A stretch of 64,000 nucleotides of DNA, taken from the NCBI GenBank assembly GCA_021651055.1, contig JAJHOH010000001.1:744001-808000 (forward strand), in the 5' to 3' direction. The position numbers and the translations under genes were made by a program. Source of the stretch: Candidatus Manganitrophus morganii. GTDB lineage: Bacteria; Nitrospirota; Nitrospiria; SBBL01; Manganitrophaceae. Within the stretch, counting starts at the first letter, position 1. Every line of letters begins with the position of its first letter. Of this stretch, positions 19,243-42,491 are shown in pieces. A model generated the notes under the pieces. The model saw only the letters and a list, made by a program, of their open reading frames with translations. It searched no databases and was not told the origin of the DNA.

Positions 19243-20655
19243 TTATTCGATTTGATGGACCTTGATTAGATCATTGATCGTCGAGCCGACCCAGGGAGAT
19301 TTCGAAACCATCACCAACAGATCTCCCCGCTTCACCTCTTTGCTCTGGGTGACGGCGTGGATAAACTCCTTGAAGATGTCATCGGTATTTTTCAGCAGCG
19401 GCATTCGACGCGGCGTGACCCCCCAGTAGAGGCTCATCCGGCGCTCGATCTCGGGATGGGGGGTAAAAGCAAGGATCGGATTCGTCGGCCGGTATTTGGA
19501 AAGGCGAAGGGCCGCCCCTCCGGTGAGGGTGGAGGTGACGATCGCCTTCGCGCTCATCTGCCAGGCGAGCTGGCAGGCCGCGGAGCTGACCGCCCGCGCC
19601 ACGGAGAGTCCTTGCTGAAGACGGCGGTCCATCACCGGCGCCCGTCTTTCGGCGGCAACGATGATCCGGGCCATCGTCTTGACCGACTCCACCGGATAGT
19701 TCCCCGCCGCGGTCTCCGCCGAGAGCATCACCGCATCGGTCCCGTCGATGATCGCATTGGCCACATCGGACGCTTCGGCGCGGGTCGGGCGGGGCCGTTC
19801 GACCATCGACTCCAGCATCTGCGTCGCCGTGATCACCGGAATCTGCGCATCGTTCGCCTTCTTGATAATCTCCTTTTGAAGCAACGGCACCTGCTCCAGC
19901 GGAATCTCCACCCCCAAATCCCCGCGCGCCACCATCACCCCATCGGCCACCTTCATAATTTCATCCAGATGGTCGATCGCCATCGCCTGCTCCAGCTTGG
20001 CGATCACCGGAACATCTTTCTTCTCCCGCAGGATCAACCGCTTGATCGTCAGGAGATCCTCGGCCCGCCGGACCATGGAGAGGGCGACAAAGTCAACCCC
20101 ATGCGCAAGACCGAATTTGAGATCGGCGCGGTCCTTGGCGGTGAGAGAGGGAAAGCCCAAATCCCGGCCCGGCACATTGATTCCCTTGTAAGCCTGAAGC
20201 GTTCCCCCGCCGATAACACGGCAAATGATCTTTTCATCCTCGATCCTGAGGACGCGAAGCTCGATCGCGCCGTCGTTCATCATGATGGCATCGCCCGGCC
20301 GGACCTTTTTGTGTAACTCCGGATGGGTCGTGGAAATCGCTTCTTCCGTTCCCGGGATCGGCCTCGGCAAGATCGTCAGAAGTTTCCCCCGTTTGAGTTG
20401 AATCGACTTCTCTTTTAAGGCGCCGACGCGAACCTTCGGCCCCTGAAGGTCTTGAAGGATGGCAACCGGCTTCCCCTTCTTCTCCGAGATCCGTCGAATG
20501 TGCCGGATCGCCGCCCCATGTTCTTCATGAAGACCGTGAGAAAAGTTCAGCCGGATCACATCGGCTCCGGCGCCGATCAGGCGGGAGATCATCTCCTCGG
20601 ATGCGGTCGCGGGCCCGAGGGTGCAAACAATTTTGGCGCGTCTTGGCGTTGTCAC
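19243..20655 (-). CDS. pyk: Pyruvate kinase
   Basis: 470 residues, normal length for the bacterial enzyme. Starts RRAKIVCTLGPAT, has RLNFSHG, the catalytic-lysine segment VIAKLEQ, the metal-site VARGDLGVEIP, TATQMLESM and a C-terminal allosteric domain. Converts phosphoenolpyruvate and ADP to pyruvate and ATP in glycolysis. With the PEP carboxylase at 52539-55373 it frames the PEP node. First gene of a likely two-gene operon with the zinc-ribbon protein. Confidence 0.97.
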   Translation of the reverse strand: MTTPRRAKIVCTLGPATASEEMISRLIGAGADVIRLNFSHGLHEEHGAAIRHIRRISEKKGKPVAILQDLQGPKVRVGALKEKSIQLKRGKLLTILPRPIPGTEEAISTTHPELHKKVRPGDAIMMNDGAIELRVLRIEDEKIICRVIGGGTLQAYKGINVPGRDLGFPSLTAKDRADLKFGLAHGVDFVALSMVRRAEDLLTIKRLILREKKDVPVIAKLEQAMAIDHLDEIMKVADGVMVARGDLGVEIPLEQVPLLQKEIIKKANDAQIPVITATQMLESMVERPRPTRAEASDVANAIIDGTDAVMLSAETAAGNYPVESVKTMARIIVAAERRAPVMDRRLQQGLSVARAVSSAACQLAWQMSAKAIVTSTLTGGAALRLSKYRPTNPILAFTPHPEIERRMSLYWGVTPRRMPLLKNTDDIFKEFIHAVTQSKEVKRGDLLVMVSKSPWVGSTINDLIKVHQIE

Positions 20656-34122: not shown

Positions 34123-37100
34123 CTAAGCCGATTTTGATTGTTTCTTTCCCTCTTCTTTCCGATCCATCCAGACCCGGAGCAGGGAGAGAAGACGGTTATT
34201 ATCGACCGGCTTGGTGATATAGTCGGAGACACCCGCTTCGATGCATTTCTCCCGATCCTCCTTCATCGCCTTGGCGGTCAGGGCGATAATCGGAAGCGAT
34301 TTGTATTTCTCCATGTTTCGAATCATTCGGGTCGTTTCGTATCCGTCCAACTCCGGCATCATGATGTCCATCAAAACGAGATCGACGTCCCTGTTGTTTT
34401 TCAACAGTTCGATCCCTTCCTTGCCGTTCTCAGAAAAGAGCACCGTCACCCCCTGGCTTTCGAGAAGGCTGGTCACCGCGAAGATATTGCGGACATCATC
34501 GTCGACCACAAGAATCTTCTTTCCGTTCAGGCTTCCCGGGGGAATCTCGTCCGATTGGGCGTTTTCGTTCTCCGCGTCCTGGCCGTAGTCGCGTTCGACA
34601 TCGGAACCGGCATACGACTCCGGCAGGTAGAGGGTGAAGGTGCTTCCCCGGCCGGGGGTGCTCTCCACGTGAATTTCCCCTCCCAACAGCCGCGCGATCT
34701 CCCGGCTGATCGTCAGCCCCAGACCGGTCCCGCCGTATTTCCGGCTGGTGGTCCCATCGGCCTGCTGGAAGGCTTCGAAGATCAGCTTTTGTTTGTTCTT
34801 GGGGATCCCGACGCCGGTGTCGGTCACCGAGAATGCAATGATGGAATTCGACCGTTTGAGGAGCTCGCTCTCAAAAACCACCTCCGGATCGGCAGGAGCG
34901 ATACGGAGCAGGACATTTCCTTTTTCAGTGAATTTGAAAGCGTTCGACAAAAGGTTCTTCAAGATCTGCTGGAGGCGCTGCTCATCGGTCCGGATCGCGC
35001 TCGGCAAGGCCTCATCCCGGATGGTGTTAAAACCAAGCCCCTTCTGCTGCGCCATCTCCCGGAAGGTCCGCTCGACATAGTCCTGGACCTCCGGAAGGCG
35101 GATATCGCTCGGGGTCACCCCCATCTTCCCCGATTCGACCTTGGAGAGATCCAAGATCTCATTGATCAGGGTCAACAGGTCACATCCCGACGTATAGATG
35201 GTCTGCGCATACTCGACCTGCTTCGGAGTAAGGGTCGTGTCTTTGTTTTCCGAGAGGAGCTTGGCCAGCACCAGCAGGCTGTTGAGCGGGGTTCGAAGCT
35301 CGTGAGACATATTGGCGAGAAATTCCGACTTGTATTTCGAAATCAGGGAGAGCTGTTCCGCTTTTTCCTCCAGAGAGACCGACGCCAGCTCGACCTCCTT
35401 GTTCTTGACTTCGAGCAGCGACGCCTTCTCTTCCAGCTCTTTCGCCTGGGCCTCGAGCTCCGCGTTGGACTTCTGCAGCTCTTGGAGCAGCTCTTCCGTC
35501 CGCATGCTCGCCGAGATCATGTTCAGCACCACGCCGATGCTTGCCATCAGCTGATCGAGAAAGATCTGATGGTTCTGGCTGAACGGCTGGAAAGAGGCAA
35601 GCTCGATGACCGCTTTGACCTCTCCCTCGAAAAGGACCGGCAAGACGATGATGTTCAGCGGAGGGGCCTCCCCCAGACCGGAGTTGATCGTGATGTAGTC
35701 GGGCGGGACCTTCGTCAGAAGGATGCTCTTTTTCTCCAGCGCGCACTGTCCGATCAAGCTCTCTCCGAGGTGGAACCGTTGCGTGAGATTTTTCCGCTCC
35801 TTAAAGGCGTAGCTGCTGATCAGTTTAAAGATCGATTCGTTGTCCTGGTTCTCCGCAATGTAGAAGGCGCCGTGGTGCGCCGAGATCAGCGGGGTCAGCT
35901 CCGACATGATCAACCGGGAGATCGCCTTCAGATCTTTTTGACCCTGCATCATTCCGGAGAACTTGGCGAGGTTGGTTTTCAGCCAGTCCTGCTCCATGTT
36001 CTTCTGCGTCGTATCTTTCAGGTTCGCGATCATCTGGTTGATGTTGTTTTTGAGGGCAGAGACCTCTCCTTGCGCCTCGACCGTAATTGATCGGGTCAAA
36101 TCTCCCTTCGTCACGGCGGTGGCGACCTCCGCGATGGCCCGCACCTGCGTGGTGAGGTTGCCGGCGAGCTGGTTCACGTTGTCGGTCAAGTCCTTCCAGG
36201 TCCCCGCGGCCCCCGGCACCTTCGCCTGGCCGCCGAGCTTCCCTTCGATTCCCACCTCCCGGGCGACGTCGGTCACCTGATCGGCGAAGATTCTCAATGT
36301 ATCGGTCATGCTGTTGATCGTGTCGGCCAGCGCGGCGATCTCCCCTTTCGCTTCCACGACCAATTTCCGGGTCAGATCTCCGTTTGCGACCGCGGTCACG
36401 ACCTTGACGATCCCGCGCACCTGCGTGGTCAGGTTGCTCGCCATGAAATTCACATTGTCGGTCAGATCTTTCCAGGTTCCGGAGACCCCTTTCACCTCCG
36501 CCTGGCCGCCGAGCTTTCCTTCGGTGCCCACCTCTTTCGCCACACGGGTCACCTCCGCGGAGAAGGAGTTGAGCTGGTCCACCATGACGTTGATCGTATT
36601 TTTAAGTTCGAGGATTTCCCCTTTCGCATCGACGGTGATCTTCTGAGACAAGTCTCCTTTCGCGACGGCCGTCGTCACCTTCGCGATGTTACGCACCTGA
36701 GAGGTGAGGTTGCCCGCGAGCTGGTTCACGTTGTCGGTGAGGTCCTTCCAGGTTCCAGCGACCCCTTTCACATCGGCCTGACCGCCGAGCTTCCCTTCGG
36801 TCCCCACCTCTTTCGCCACACGGGTCACCTCCGCCGCGAAGGAGTTGAGCTGGTCCACCATGGTGTTGATCGTGTTCTTCAGCTCCAGGATCTCCCCCTT
36901 CGCATCGACGGTGATCTTCTGAGACAAGTCTCCTTTCGCCACCGCGGTCGTCACCTTCGCAATATTACGCACCTGAGAGGTCAGGTTGCCCGCGAGCTGG
37001 TTCACGTTGTCGGTCAAGTCCTTCCACGTCCCGGAGACCCCTTTCACCTCCGCCTGGCCGCCGAGCTTTCCTTCGGTCCCCACCTCTTTCGCCACACGCG

Positions 37101-39873
37101 TCACCTCCGCGGCGAAGGAGCTGAGCTGATCCACCATGACGTTGATCGTATTTTTAAGTTCGAGGATTTCCCCTTTCGCATCGACGGTGATCTTCTGGGA
37201 GAGGTCCCCTTTCGCCACCGCGGTCGTCACCTTCGCGATGTTACGCACCTGAGAGGTCAGGTTGCCCGCGAGCTGGTTCACATTATCGGTCAAGTCTTTC
37301 CAAGTCCCGGAGACCCCTTTCACCTCCGCCTGACCGCCGAGTTTTCCTTCGGTGCCCACCTCTTTCGCGACCCGGGTCACCTCCGCGGCGAACGACCGAA
37401 GCTGATCCACCATGACGTTGATCGTATTTTTAAGTTCGAGGATTTCGCCCTTCGCATCGACGGTGATCTTCTGAGACAAGTCTCCTTTCGCCACCGCGGT
37501 CGTCACCTTCGCGATGTTACGCACCTGAGAGGTCAGGTTGCCCGCGAGCTGGTTCACATTATCGGTCAAGTCTTTCCAAGTCCCGGAGACCCCTTTCACC
37601 TCCGCCTGACCGCCGAGTTTTCCTTCGGTGCCCACCTCTTTCGCGACCCGGGTCACCTCCGCGGCGAACGATCGGAGCTGATCCACCATGACGTTGATCG
37701 TATTTTTAAGTTCGAGGATTTCCCCTTTCGCGTCGACTTCGATCTTCTGGGAGAGGTCCCCCTTCGCGACGGCCGTGGTGACCTTGGCGATATTACGCAC
37801 CTGAGAGGTCAGGTTGCCCGCGAGCTGGTTCACATTGTCGGTGAGGCCCTTCCAGGTGCCGGAGACCCCCTTCACCTCCGCCTGGCCGCCGAGCTTCCCT
37901 TCGGTCCCCACCTCTTTGGCGACGCGCGTCACCTCCGCGGCGAAGGAGTTGAGCTGATCGACCATGACGTTGATTGTGTTCTTCAGCTCTAAGATCTCGC
38001 CTTTCGCATCAACGGTGATCTTCTGGGAGAGGTCCCCTTTCGCCACCGCCGTGGCCACCTGTGCGATGTTACGCACCTGAGAGGTCAGGTTGCTCGCCAT
38101 GAAGTTCACATTCTCCGTCAGCCCCTTCCAGGTGCCGGAGACCCCCTTCACGTCGGCCTGGCCGCCGAGCTTCCCTTCGGTCCCCACCTCTTTCGCCACA
38201 CGCGTCACCTCCGCGGAGAAGGAGTTGAGCTGATCCACCATGACGTTGATTGTGTTCTTCAGCTCCAAGATTTCGCCCTTCGCATCGACGGTGATCTTCT
38301 GGGAGAGGTCCCCTTTCGCCACCGCCGTGGCCACCTGTGCGATGTTACGCACCTGAGAGGTCAGGTTGCTCGCCATGAAGTTCACATTCTCCGTCAGCCC
38401 CTTCCAGGTGCCGGAGACCCCCTTCACCTCCGCTTGCCCGCCGAGTTTCCCTTCGGTCCCCACCTCTTTCGCCACACGCGTCACCTCAGAGGCGAACGAG
38501 CTGAGCTGGTCGACCATTTTATTGATCACGTCTTTAATCTGAAGAATCTCCCCTTTCACCGTCACCGTAATCTTCTGTCCCAGATCTCCGTTTGCAATCG
38601 AGGTCGCCACCTTGGAAACGTCCCGCAGCTGCACGGTCAGGTTGGCCGCCATCGCATTCACGTTGTCGGTCAAGTCTTTCCACGTTCCGGAGACCCCTCT
38701 CACCTCCGCCTGCCCACCGAGCTTCCCTTCGGTACCCACCTCTTTCGCGACCCGGGTCACCTCCGCGGCGAACGAGCTGAGCTGGTCGACCATGACGTTG
38801 ATCGTGTTCTTCAGCTCCAAGATTTCGCCCTTCGCATCGACGGTGATCTTCTGGGAGAGGTCCCCTTTCGCCACCGCGGTCGTCACCTTCGCGATATTAC
38901 GCACCTGAGAGGTCAGGTTTCCGGCGAGCTGGTTCACGTTGTCGGTGAGATCTTTCCAGGTACCCGAAACCCCCTTCACGTCCGCCTGCCCGCCGAGCTT
39001 CCCTTCGGTCCCCACCTCTTTCGCCACACGGGTCACCTCCGCGGCAAAGGAGTTGAGCTGGTCGACCATGACGTTGATCGTGTTCTTCAGCTCCAAGATC
39101 TCGCCTTTCGCATCGACGGTGATCTTCTGGGAGAGGTCCCCTTTCGCCACCGCGGTCGTCACCTTCGCGATATTACGCACCTGAGAGGTCAGGTTTCCGG
39201 CGAGCTGGTTCACGTTGTCGGTGAGATCTTTCCAGGTACCCGAAACCCCCTTCACGTCCGCCTGCCCGCCCAGCTTTCCTTCGGTCCCCACCTCTTTCGC
39301 GACCCGGGTCACCTCCGCGGCGAACGAGCTGAGCTGGTCGACCATGGTATTCACCGTCGTTCCGATTCGTAAGAACTCTCCTTTGACCGGTTTTCCCTCA
39401 ATCTCCAGGACCATCTTCTGAGACAAATCACCGTGCGCCACCGCCGTGATGACCCGGCCGACCTCCGTGGTCGGTCGGACCAGATCCCCGATCAGTGTGT
39501 TCACCGAATCGATGCTGGTTGCCCAGGCGCCTGAGACGGTGCCGAGCGAAGCCCGTTCGGTCATTTTCCCTTCCTGGCCGACGATCGTTCCGACGCGGAC
39601 AAATTCTTCCGCCATCCCCTCATTCAGGTCGACGACGTCATTGAACGCTCTTGCAATCTCGCCCATGATACCGTTCTTCACCACCGGCATCCGCACCGAG
39701 AAATCTCCCGCTTTTACTGCCTTGAGTGCCTCAAGGAGGGTGCCCAACATCGATTCACCGCCGCCCCCGGCCTGACTCCTGCCGTTCTTCGCAGAACCCG
39801 CTCGGTTTGTTTTTGCTTTCTGCTTCGATGCTGGCGTGCTCTTTGCCGTTTTTTCCATTGAACTGGTAGCCAC
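34123..39873 (-). CDS. Giant poly-HAMP hybrid histidine kinase
   Basis: 1916 residues, GTG start with GGAGGG seven bases upstream. Residues 1-42 are basic and disordered. A divergent HAMP-like unit (about 43-182) is followed by twelve tandem units of exactly 92 residues (about 183-1286), each pairing a divergent HAMP ([20 protein letters not shown]) with a canonical one ([18 protein letters not shown]). Then GAF (about 1310-1450), coiled coil, HisKA (His about 1523 in [10 protein letters not shown]), HATPase_c and a receiver (phospho-Asp about 1830 in LVLMDIMMP). No transmembrane helix. The 92-residue HAMP repeats recall fungal group III kinases (Nik1/Os-1), which sense osmotic or envelope stress. 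First gene of the operon 39873 to 30857. Confidence 0.95.
36016..39327 (-). repeat. Twelve tandem 276-bp coding repeats (HAMP units)
   Basis: The repeat unit is 276 bases (92 codons). Several units are nearly identical at DNA level, for example those around 37130-37700, while the first and last are more diverged. The period is kept without a single indel, as expected under selection for HAMP register. Confidence 0.9.
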
Positions 39874-40166: not shown

Positions 40167-42491
40167 ATGGAATCTCAAAAGGAAGAACTTCATTTCGTCA
40201 CGGTGGAAGGGCTGGTCGCCTATGGCGAGGCGATGACAAGGCGAACCCCGCCGGAAGGGGTTACCTTTCCGCCCCCCCTCCCCGCAACGGCGGATCGCGT
40301 CGGTCTCGCTCGAGAGGCGATCTCCAAAGTAAGGGCCTTTGTCGATCGGACACAAGAGAGATTTTCCGACGCCGAATCATACCGGACGGCGCGTCGGTCC
40401 CTGATCGAGGAGGGATGCGGCGGCGATCTCATTGTTTTCTTCGCCGCCTGGAATGCCGTTCTGGCCGAAGGAGGGCTCGCGCCGCTCTTGCGCGGGCCGA
40501 TCGGTTCGGTTCAGAAACCGCTCGGACGCCGGCCGGTGGCGATCGTCCCGCGGACGCAGCTGACGCCGCAGCTGGCGGAGGGGCGAATCGTCCTCGATCT
40601 CGGCGATGACCGCTTCTGGCTCCTCCCGCGCAACCTGGCCGGCCGAAGCCTTTTGTTTACGATGCGGCATGGGGTTTCCCGGGTTGAAAGCAAAACCTAT
40701 CGGGTCGGCTGCCGGCTGGCCAATACGCTGGAATCAGGAAAAGGAATCCCGAAAGCCGACGCGGTCGGCGCCGCCCTCGCCCGGATGGTGGGGGTGGTCG
40801 GCCAACAGCTCGACTTCCTTCACCTGGAAAATTACCTCGACCCGAAGAGTTTTAAACATTTAATCAGCAGCAGCCCGAATACCCGCCAACTCTTTGAGCG
40901 GGTCGCCGGAGCGTTGATCTCGAACGATCAGGATGTCCAACCCGCAACGGTCGACCCGGCGCTGGCGTCGCAAGATTTCGGCTGGGTGACCGGTCTGGAG
41001 AAAGCCGCCGAGGCGGAAGAGGCCGGCCGGGTGTTCGGGGTCGATGCAAAAACCGCCAAGCGGCTGATGAAAAACCCCCTCTACTGTTATCCCGGCGGAA
41101 ATTCGTTTTTTGATCTTTATGTCGACGTCGTCGACGGCATCCATCGGATCGCCCGATCCCAGCAGGGGGGGGTTGCCTCGCTCTATACCCACAGCTCGAC
41201 GCTGCGGGCGCTGATCACTTACCTCGATCCGAGGCCGTTTCACGAAGCCTTCTCGGAGTTCGGCGAATACAAGGAGGGGCAGGACAACGTCGTTCTTCTC
41301 GCGTATGAAAACGGACAGCTCTCCGGCTACTCCACCGCGGTCGGCCTCTCCGAACGGGAGCGGACGGCGCGCGAGGCCTGGATCAGCGTCGAGCGGGAAC
41401 GGGCCGGCCGGGTCACCCTCCGGCCGAATCAACTCCGGCAGGTCGTCGCCCTGGTTTCCGGGGGAGATTTCGCCGGCGCCGGGGCGGCGCTCAAGGAGCT
41501 TCGCGCCTGCGGCGACCGTCTCGGGATCGCCGTTCACTTCGTCCGACACGGATTCTTAGGGTTGGCGAACAACTGGATCGAGCAATTCACCGAGCGGGAG
41601 ATGCGCGGCATGGCCGGCGTAGCCAGCAGCCCGATCGGGAGCAGCCGGTTTGAAGATTTCAAGGATGAAGAGGTCCAAGGAGTCGTGATGCGGAACCTGG
41701 CCCCCTACCTCGAAAACGGCGCCCTCGTCGTCATGGGGGGAGACGGGAGTCTCCGGGGAGCCCGTGTTCTTTTTGAGAAGTTCGGCGTACAGGTCGTCGG
41801 CCTGCCGGGGACGATCGACGACAACCTTGCCGGCACGACCTCACTCGGCTTTCATTCGGCGGTCGCCCTGGCGAACCACTCGCTCGAATCGCTCAAGGCG
41901 ACGAGCGCCGCGATGGGAAGCATCTTCTTCGTCGAGGTGATGGGGGCCGGGGCGGGCCATCTCGCGCTCGCCTGCGCTTATCAGGCCCGCGCCGAGGGGA
42001 TCTTGGTGAACGAACATCCCGACCCGGACGCCTATATCGATCAGATCATCTTGGGAAACCTGAAGCGGTCGATGGGGGTGCCGAACAAGAGCCATCTCTT
42101 CATCGTCGCAGAGAAGACCCCGCACCGGCATCACCCGCTCGGCGGGGTCCATGGGCTCGTCGATTACATCGCCCAGACGATCGCGAAGTGGCCCTCCGCG
42201 CGGTCGGCGCAGGGGGACTATCGCTTAACGGTGGCGACGAAGGCGACCATCCTCGGCCACACCCTGCGGGGCGCCCCGCCGACGCCGATCGACCGGACGT
42301 TGGCGCAGCACTTTGCCTATGAAACGCTCCATCGTCTGGTGGAGCGGCCGGAGAGCGCGGTCGGATGCCTCCTCGCCTGCCGTGTGGAAGGAGCGGTCGA
42401 AGCGATCCCGCTCCACAGCATCACCCCCAAGCCGTTCGACTGGGAACTCTTTTCGAGAATGCACGGAAACATCAATACAATTAGGAATTAG
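40167..42491 (+). CDS. Phosphofructokinase-like protein with a large N-terminal domain
   Basis: 774 residues, about twice a bacterial PFK. Residues 1-415 match no family I recognise (starts MESQKEELHFVTVEGLVAYGEAM). The PFK fold follows: LVSGGDFAGAGAAL, MGGDGSLRGA (about 522; GGDGS is the ATP-type form), LPGTIDDNLAGT (about 546; catalytic Asp kept, TIDND changed to TIDDN), VEVMGAGAGHLAL (about 589; the usual Arg of MGRHAG is Ala), IVAEKTP and LGHTLRGAPPTPIDR (Arg kept). The missing Arg contacts the sugar phosphate in E. coli PfkA, so the substrate may differ from fructose 6-phosphate or the protein may be regulatory. Alone on its strand. Confidence 0.8.
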   Translation: MESQKEELHFVTVEGLVAYGEAMTRRTPPEGVTFPPPLPATADRVGLAREAISKVRAFVDRTQERFSDAESYRTARRSLIEEGCGGDLIVFFAAWNAVLAEGGLAPLLRGPIGSVQKPLGRRPVAIVPRTQLTPQLAEGRIVLDLGDDRFWLLPRNLAGRSLLFTMRHGVSRVESKTYRVGCRLANTLESGKGIPKADAVGAALARMVGVVGQQLDFLHLENYLDPKSFKHLISSSPNTRQLFERVAGALISNDQDVQPATVDPALASQDFGWVTGLEKAAEAEEAGRVFGVDAKTAKRLMKNPLYCYPGGNSFFDLYVDVVDGIHRIARSQQGGVASLYTHSSTLRALITYLDPRPFHEAFSEFGEYKEGQDNVVLLAYENGQLSGYSTAVGLSERERTAREAWISVERERAGRVTLRPNQLRQVVALVSGGDFAGAGAALKELRACGDRLGIAVHFVRHGFLGLANNWIEQFTEREMRGMAGVASSPIGSSRFEDFKDEEVQGVVMRNLAPYLENGALVVMGGDGSLRGARVLFEKFGVQVVGLPGTIDDNLAGTTSLGFHSAVALANHSLESLKATSAAMGSIFFVEVMGAGAGHLALACAYQARAEGILVNEHPDPDAYIDQIILGNLKRSMGVPNKSHLFIVAEKTPHRHHPLGGVHGLVDYIAQTIAKWPSARSAQGDYRLTVATKATILGHTLRGAPPTPIDRTLAQHFAYETLHRLVERPESAVGCLLACRVEGAVEAIPLHSITPKPFDWELFSRMHGNINTIRN

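Follow-up and report, generated by a model that had tools for sequence, protein, structure and literature searches.

The 64,000-nucleotide stretch of the Candidatus Manganitrophus morganii genome that was analysed, hereafter the window, carries a gene for a protein of 774 residues in which a helical extension, a histidine-phosphatase (HP)-fold domain and a phosphofructokinase (PFK-A) domain follow one another (Table 1). The reading frame opens with ATG and has no internal stop. We collected 104 distinct homologous sequences, all of them full-length, and the dN/dS of the whole gene (0.09-0.15) indicates purifying selection; the fusion is therefore not a sequencing artefact. One genome of the same genus, G004, has the gene in two overlapping frames (G004:C1:3677944-3680261), probably an assembly frameshift. 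The neighbouring gene (34123-39873, reverse strand) encodes a hybrid sensor histidine kinase of 1916 residues with 13 tandem HAMP stretches, an unusually long array, followed by GAF, HisKA, HATPase and receiver domains. A scan for promoters and terminators gave no signal usefully above chance.

Table 1. Features of the fusion gene and of the pyruvate kinase gene in the window.
Feature	Position	Strand	Evidence
Fusion gene, 774 aa: helical extension, HP-fold domain and PFK-A domain	40167..42491	+	ORF, 104 homologues, dN/dS
Residues 1-160, mostly helical extension, no known family	40167..40646	+	No Pfam match; model helices; conservation
Residues 161-395, HP-fold domain	40647..41351	+	PF00300, model, fold search, profile comparison
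RHG motif, R167 H168 G169	40665..40673	+	Invariant 104/104
SPNTR 236-240, usual second-Arg site	40872..40886	+	Family alignment, profile comparison
ASQDFGW 267-273, usual Glu acid site	40965..40985	+	Family alignment, profile comparison
YTHSSTLRAL 340-349, second catalytic-type His H342	41184..41213	+	Invariant
Residues 424-725, PFK-A catalytic domain	41436..42341	+	PF00365 187 bits; Foldseek to E. coli PFK, E 1e-14
GGDGSLRG 524-531, ATP-type donor signature GGDGSxxG	41736..41759	+	Alignment, family conservation
TIDDN 549-553: D551 is the kept catalytic base Asp127; Asn553 replaces Asp129	41811..41825	+	Alignment
MGAGAGH 592-598: Ala594 replaces Arg171; H598	41940..41960	+	Alignment
EKTPHRHH 649-656: Glu222 equivalent, then family-specific His-rich loop	42111..42134	+	Alignment
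TKATILGHTLRG 691-702: K692 replaces Arg243; H698 and R701 are the kept His249 and Arg252	42237..42272	+	Alignment
Pyruvate kinase, about 20 kb from the fusion	19243..20655	-	PF00224 and PF02887

The initial annotation had described the N-terminal part as unrecognised and proposed structure prediction and a fold search. These returned an HP fold for residues ~161-395, so that about 235 of the roughly 415 residues are accounted for by Pfam, the structural model and Foldseek. The His_Phos_1 family (PF00300) matches the window protein at 23.7 bits, above its threshold of 21.7, and was matched in 50 of 51 family members. An AlphaFold model of residues 1-412, built from 37 homologues, has a mean pLDDT of 83.8 and a pTM of 0.86, and the 50 matches listed for it by Foldseek against the PDB belong to the histidine-phosphatase superfamily throughout; they include PhoE (1h2e and 1ebb, TM to target 0.75-0.76), glucosyl-3-phosphoglycerate phosphatase (4pz9, TM 0.74), dPGM, TIGAR and PFK-2/FBPase-2. 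Compared profile to profile with 14 HP proteins of its own and related genomes, the domain gave 89.5% probability and, for this one comparison, an E-value of 2e-6. The idea that this half is a degenerate second PFK copy was rejected, given that the matches listed are histidine phosphatases and mutases and that the protein has a single PF00365 stretch; neither the Foldseek matches listed nor Pfam give the N-terminal half a PFK-A domain of its own, such as the duplicated eukaryotic-type PFKs have. Residues 1-160 form the least conserved region of the protein, gave no match in a Pfam search and are predicted by the model to contain helices at 13-24, 44-63, 69-83 and 88-100.

We then compared the domain with HP branch 1; in histidine phosphatases R8, H9, R58 and H149 are highly conserved and N15 and E82 variable (PMC12051542). 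Fold and profile, the Arg-His-Gly motif with the nucleophilic-His position and the second His are all present, and R167, H168 and H342 are invariant in 104 of 104 members, but a conserved second Arg (R58 type) and the Glu proton donor are lacking. R240, at the usual second-Arg site, is Arg in 66 of the 104 members and E, T, K, S or another residue in the rest, although an alternative register of the profile comparison places the invariant N238 there. The usual Glu acid position is Ser268 in 103 of 104 members, and E267 or D270 might substitute as the acid in most of them. Purifying selection is about equally strong on the two halves, with dN/dS of 0.05-0.12 for the HP half and 0.04-0.16 for the PFK half, and hence the HP half is functional. 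Judged on these residues the domain is probably not an ordinary phosphatase, although the invariant Arg-His...His core could equally reflect genuine phosphatase chemistry. The dPGM structures among the matches listed and a pyruvate kinase neighbour would suit an HP half that is a phosphoglycerate mutase or another phosphoglycerate enzyme, the fusion then joining two steps of glycolysis; we consider this the most improbable of the readings, as no curated mutase model was reached and a mutase requires the acid and both arginines, here missing or variable.

If the core is active, the protein could be a bifunctional enzyme whose PFK half makes a sugar bisphosphate, possibly fructose 1,6-bisphosphate or one that serves as a signal, and whose HP half removes a phosphate from it, a prokaryotic counterpart of PFK-2/FBPase-2 with a PFK-A kinase in the place of the P-loop kinase. 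The invariant R167, H168 and H342 and the purifying selection on the HP half agree with such a role, as do TIGAR and PFK-2/FBPase-2 among the structural matches listed; moreover, FBPase activity has been proven for one histidine phosphatase, Mycobacterium GPM2 (PMC4535450), and PPIP5K is a known kinase-HP fusion that acts in both directions (PMC11836120). The Ser in place of the usual Glu acid, the variable second Arg and a separate FBPase I in 57 of 58 relatives speak against it, and we regard this reading as possible but unlikely. The stronger statement, that an active PFK-A kinase and an HP phosphatase in one protein form an independently evolved PFK-2/FBPase-2 analogue setting the direction of carbon flow, is a shade more doubtful. 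A role for the HP half as a missing FBPase is unneeded in view of the same FBPase I enzymes; no GlpX-type enzyme was found among the relatives examined.

The PFK half is assigned by fold and family profile, PF00365 scoring far above its cut-off of 30.9 bits and Foldseek matching it to E. coli PFK (2pfk). It does not reach the score required by any of the curated NCBI PFK models; TIGR02482, the ATP-PFK equivalog, gives 164.9 bits against 371.35. In E. coli PfkA numbering, the ATP-site glycines, R72, D103, D127, E222, H249, R252, GGDGSxxG and Gly124 are invariant across the family. The motifs named in the initial annotation are all present (GGDGS 524-528, TIDDN 549-553 and MGAGAG 592-597), and its statement that GGDGS and the catalytic Asp are kept applies to the whole family, D551 (the Asp127 base) and D526 (the Mg ligand Asp103) being found in 104 of 104 members. 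GGDGSxxG together with Gly124 is the ATP signature (PMC11609450), and the donor motif being of the ATP type, PPi or ADP as the phosphoryl donor is not favoured.

The sugar-phosphate pocket is, on the other hand, changed throughout. Asp129 is Asn and the R171 position is Ala in 104 of 104 members, R162 is replaced by Ser, Thr or Asn and R243 by Lys, so that three of the fructose-6-phosphate ligands (R162, R171 and R243) are replaced in 104 of 104 sequences, whereas H249, R252 and E222 are kept. Alignment with 30 comparison PFKs (29 from related genomes and E. coli PfkA) bears out the altered active site as common to the family and foreign to other PFKs: D129, R162 and R243 are unaltered in 30 of 30, and the R171 position is Arg in 26, His in three and Lys in one. 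TIDDN for TIDND, pointed out earlier, does occur in the window protein but is a minority form (17 of 104 members, most having TIDNN), the constant change being Asp129 to Asn. The reported loss of the MGRxxG Arg is confirmed, and no compensating Arg aligns at its site; its description as a sugar-phosphate contact is less apt, since R171 in E. coli PfkA lies nearer the transferred phosphoryl group, and the 6-phosphate is bound mainly by R162', R243', H249 and R252. Two further sugar-phosphate arginines, R162 and R243, are thus lost beyond the one first noticed. The family has also acquired nearly invariant new features, namely H598, K641 and, immediately behind the E222 equivalent, a PHRHH loop, and it has lost R25, R54 and K213 of the classical effector site. 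In a tree with the 30 comparison PFKs, ten family members are set apart by a branch 3.4 changes per site long, with a support of 100/100; its exact placement is uncertain owing to long branches.

Such a pocket could belong to a different sugar kinase, one that uses ATP on another sugar, phosphorylated or not, for example sedoheptulose 7-phosphate, with glycolytic PFK activity coming from other enzymes. The family-wide loss of R162, R171, R243 and D129, in which the 30 comparison PFKs differ (R171 partly excepted), the great length of the stem, at 3.4 changes per site, and the second PFKs of many genomes point that way, but the sugar-phosphate ligands H249, R252 and E222 are kept, the gene is linked to pyruvate kinase and the fusion is the sole PF00365 protein in some genomes (PFK-B being left out of the count), and we rate this reading as unlikely, slightly below the two bifunctional ones. 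Four active-site changes might also suggest that both halves are degenerate and that the protein is a non-catalytic regulator of other enzymes, much as the second half of animal PFK has lost catalysis and has a non-Arg residue at the MGR position (MGGYCG; PMC12203962). Against this, all 104 sequences keep D103, D127, R72, E222 and the ATP-site glycines, and purifying selection on the PFK half is strong, which makes a non-catalytic protein very unlikely.

Full-length homologues of the fusion with 65-96% identity are found in most Nitrospiria genomes sampled, Nitrospira defluvii and N. moscoviensis among them, and in at least 80 contigs of the genome collection (65-88% identity); the closest named relative among the matches listed is a Candidatus Manganitrophaceae MAG with 88%. 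One of these 80 contigs carries the label Nitrospinota, perhaps by mistake. The N-terminal half occurs in 56 of 246 genomes of the phylum, all of class Nitrospiria and always inside an open frame much longer than itself; no stand-alone copy was seen in the 246 genomes, the sampled genomes of other Nitrospirota classes have no fusion, and plasmid records gave ordinary PFK matches only. As judged from these searches, the fusion is specific to class Nitrospiria within the phylum sampled.

Of the genes that lie near the fusion in relatives, pyruvate kinase is the most frequent; it is close by in 49 of 81 loci, at position -1 and divergent in 28 and at +1, downstream, in 13. In G002, G004 and G005 the two are 14-18 kb apart, a distance of similar size to that in the window, and insertions may have separated the pair in this genus. 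By eye, a wider conserved block surrounds the fusion and pyruvate kinase in L036, L037, L054 and other Nitrospira loci, with a HAD phosphatase, two M16 peptidase-like proteins, a hemL-like aminotransferase and metallo-hydrolases as recurring members. The fusion is the sole PF00365 protein (PFK-B left out) of the near-complete genomes G047, G054 and G057, and many genomes, including that of the window, have a second PFK. The second PFK of the window's own genome, L001 (G000:C1:2498316-2499236, reverse strand), reads GGDGTLKI, of the GGDGTxxI kind, with Lys124, and the fusion is therefore the only PFK-A in its own genome with the ATP signature; the L001 motif is nearer to the ADP/PPi-type motifs of PMC11609450. 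Related genomes also hold atypical short PFKs in which Gly124 is Ser and Asp103, the Mg ligand, is mostly Asn (L121, L123, L126, L128, L131, L134, L136, L137, L138, L140 and L147), with some rows that differ: the Asp103 position is Thr in L140 and Asp in L132, and L147-like rows vary. Three other short PFKs (L120, L122 and L125) have GGEGS for GGDGS and His at the R171 position.

Sequence and structure prediction establish the two-domain architecture, its class-wide conservation, the ATP signature, the catalytic base, the pocket changes and the pyruvate kinase linkage. Our preferred, still tentative, interpretation is a Nitrospiria-specific PFK of the ATP type in which the sugar-phosphate pocket has been rebuilt and a fused non-canonical HP-fold domain exerts control. 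In its favour, the ATP signature, Gly124, D103, D127, R72, E222, H249 and R252 are kept, pyruvate kinase is near in 49 of 81 loci, and the fusion is the sole PF00365 protein in some genomes. The PFK half would phosphorylate fructose 6-phosphate with ATP in the breakdown (glycolytic) direction, in organisms that otherwise run mostly in the direction of sugar synthesis. Classical PFK tetramers build the 6-phosphate site with Arg162 and Arg243 of the neighbouring subunit; here it may have been rebuilt from Lys692 and the PHRHH loop by the Glu222 equivalent, the structural model being poor around the PFK pocket. The HP half is read as non-canonical and regulatory because of the Ser at the acid site, the variable second Arg and the invariant R167, H168 and H342, and may mainly bind a phospho-metabolite or be slowly phosphorylated. 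Control would have passed to it from the classical effector site, where R25, R54 and K213 are lost. The lack of a stand-alone N-terminal half in the 246 genomes and the purifying selection on the HP half also favour the interpretation as a whole. D129N, R162S/T, R171A and R243K could, however, signal a different substrate, and the second PFK of many genomes also counts against the interpretation. An ATP-dependent PFK under HP-domain control is nevertheless the most economical reading, the bifunctional enzyme coming next, and of the "different substrate or a regulatory role" first proposed, a regulatory N-terminal part is the likeliest reading and a different substrate only possible.

Among the major nitrifiers are Nitrospira, which have manganese-oxidising relatives, and these bacteria grow mainly by making sugars. 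How Nitrospiria switch from sugar making to breakdown is a real question, on which a fusion found in most of the class, highly conserved, often beside pyruvate kinase and in some genomes the sole PFK of its superfamily bears. Its changed pocket offers a natural case in which the part that Arg162 and Arg243 play in PFK control can be tested, and if the bifunctional reading were true, a sugar bisphosphate would be made and destroyed, as a metabolite or a signal, in nitrite-, ammonia- and manganese-oxidising Nitrospiria. We found no description of a PFK-HP fusion in the literature searched, from which many subscription papers were absent, and Nitrospira database entries may carry the domain annotation; a review of the PFK superfamily from 2025 makes no mention of one (PMC12203962). 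Both folds are already known; what we did not find described in those papers is an HP fold placed ahead of a PFK, the pocket changes shared by the family or the distribution across the clade.

With bacterial PFK-A (E. coli PfkA and G. stearothermophilus PFK) the protein shares the fold, GGDGSxxG/Gly124, D103, D127, R72, E222, H249 and R252, but differs in D129N, R162S/T, R171A, R243K, the PHRHH loop, the missing effector-site residues and the 415-residue N-terminal part. Eukaryotic PFKs also carry a large extra half on PFK-A, duplicated or, in yeast, a glyoxalase-like N-domain (PMC12203962), whereas the extra half here has an HP fold and is related to neither PFK nor glyoxalase. HP sugar phosphatases (PhoE, TIGAR and Mycobacterium GPM2) have the same fold, Arg-His-Gly and second His, but not the Ser as acid, the unconserved second Arg or the attached PFK. 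PPIP5K (Vip1/Asp1) likewise joins a kinase to an HP-superfamily domain (PMC11836120), although its kinase is unrelated and it is an HP branch 2 protein of inositol pyrophosphates. Another kinase-HP fusion of eukaryotes is PFK-2/FBPase-2 (PFKFB), which also has a fructose-6-phosphate-type kinase and an HP fold in one chain, its bisphosphatase domain resembling the HP half described here. In the fusion, however, the kinase is PFK-A and not a P-loop 6PF2K N-terminal to the phosphatase (only PF00365 and PF00300 match), the HP domain comes first, the HP acid is absent and the second Arg is variable. The pairing of such a kinase with an HP fold now extends outside the eukaryotic PFKFB line, and the fusion, one domain of which has the fold of phosphatases such as animal fructose-2,6-bisphosphatase, has the look of a familiar metabolic switch that evolved a second time on its own.
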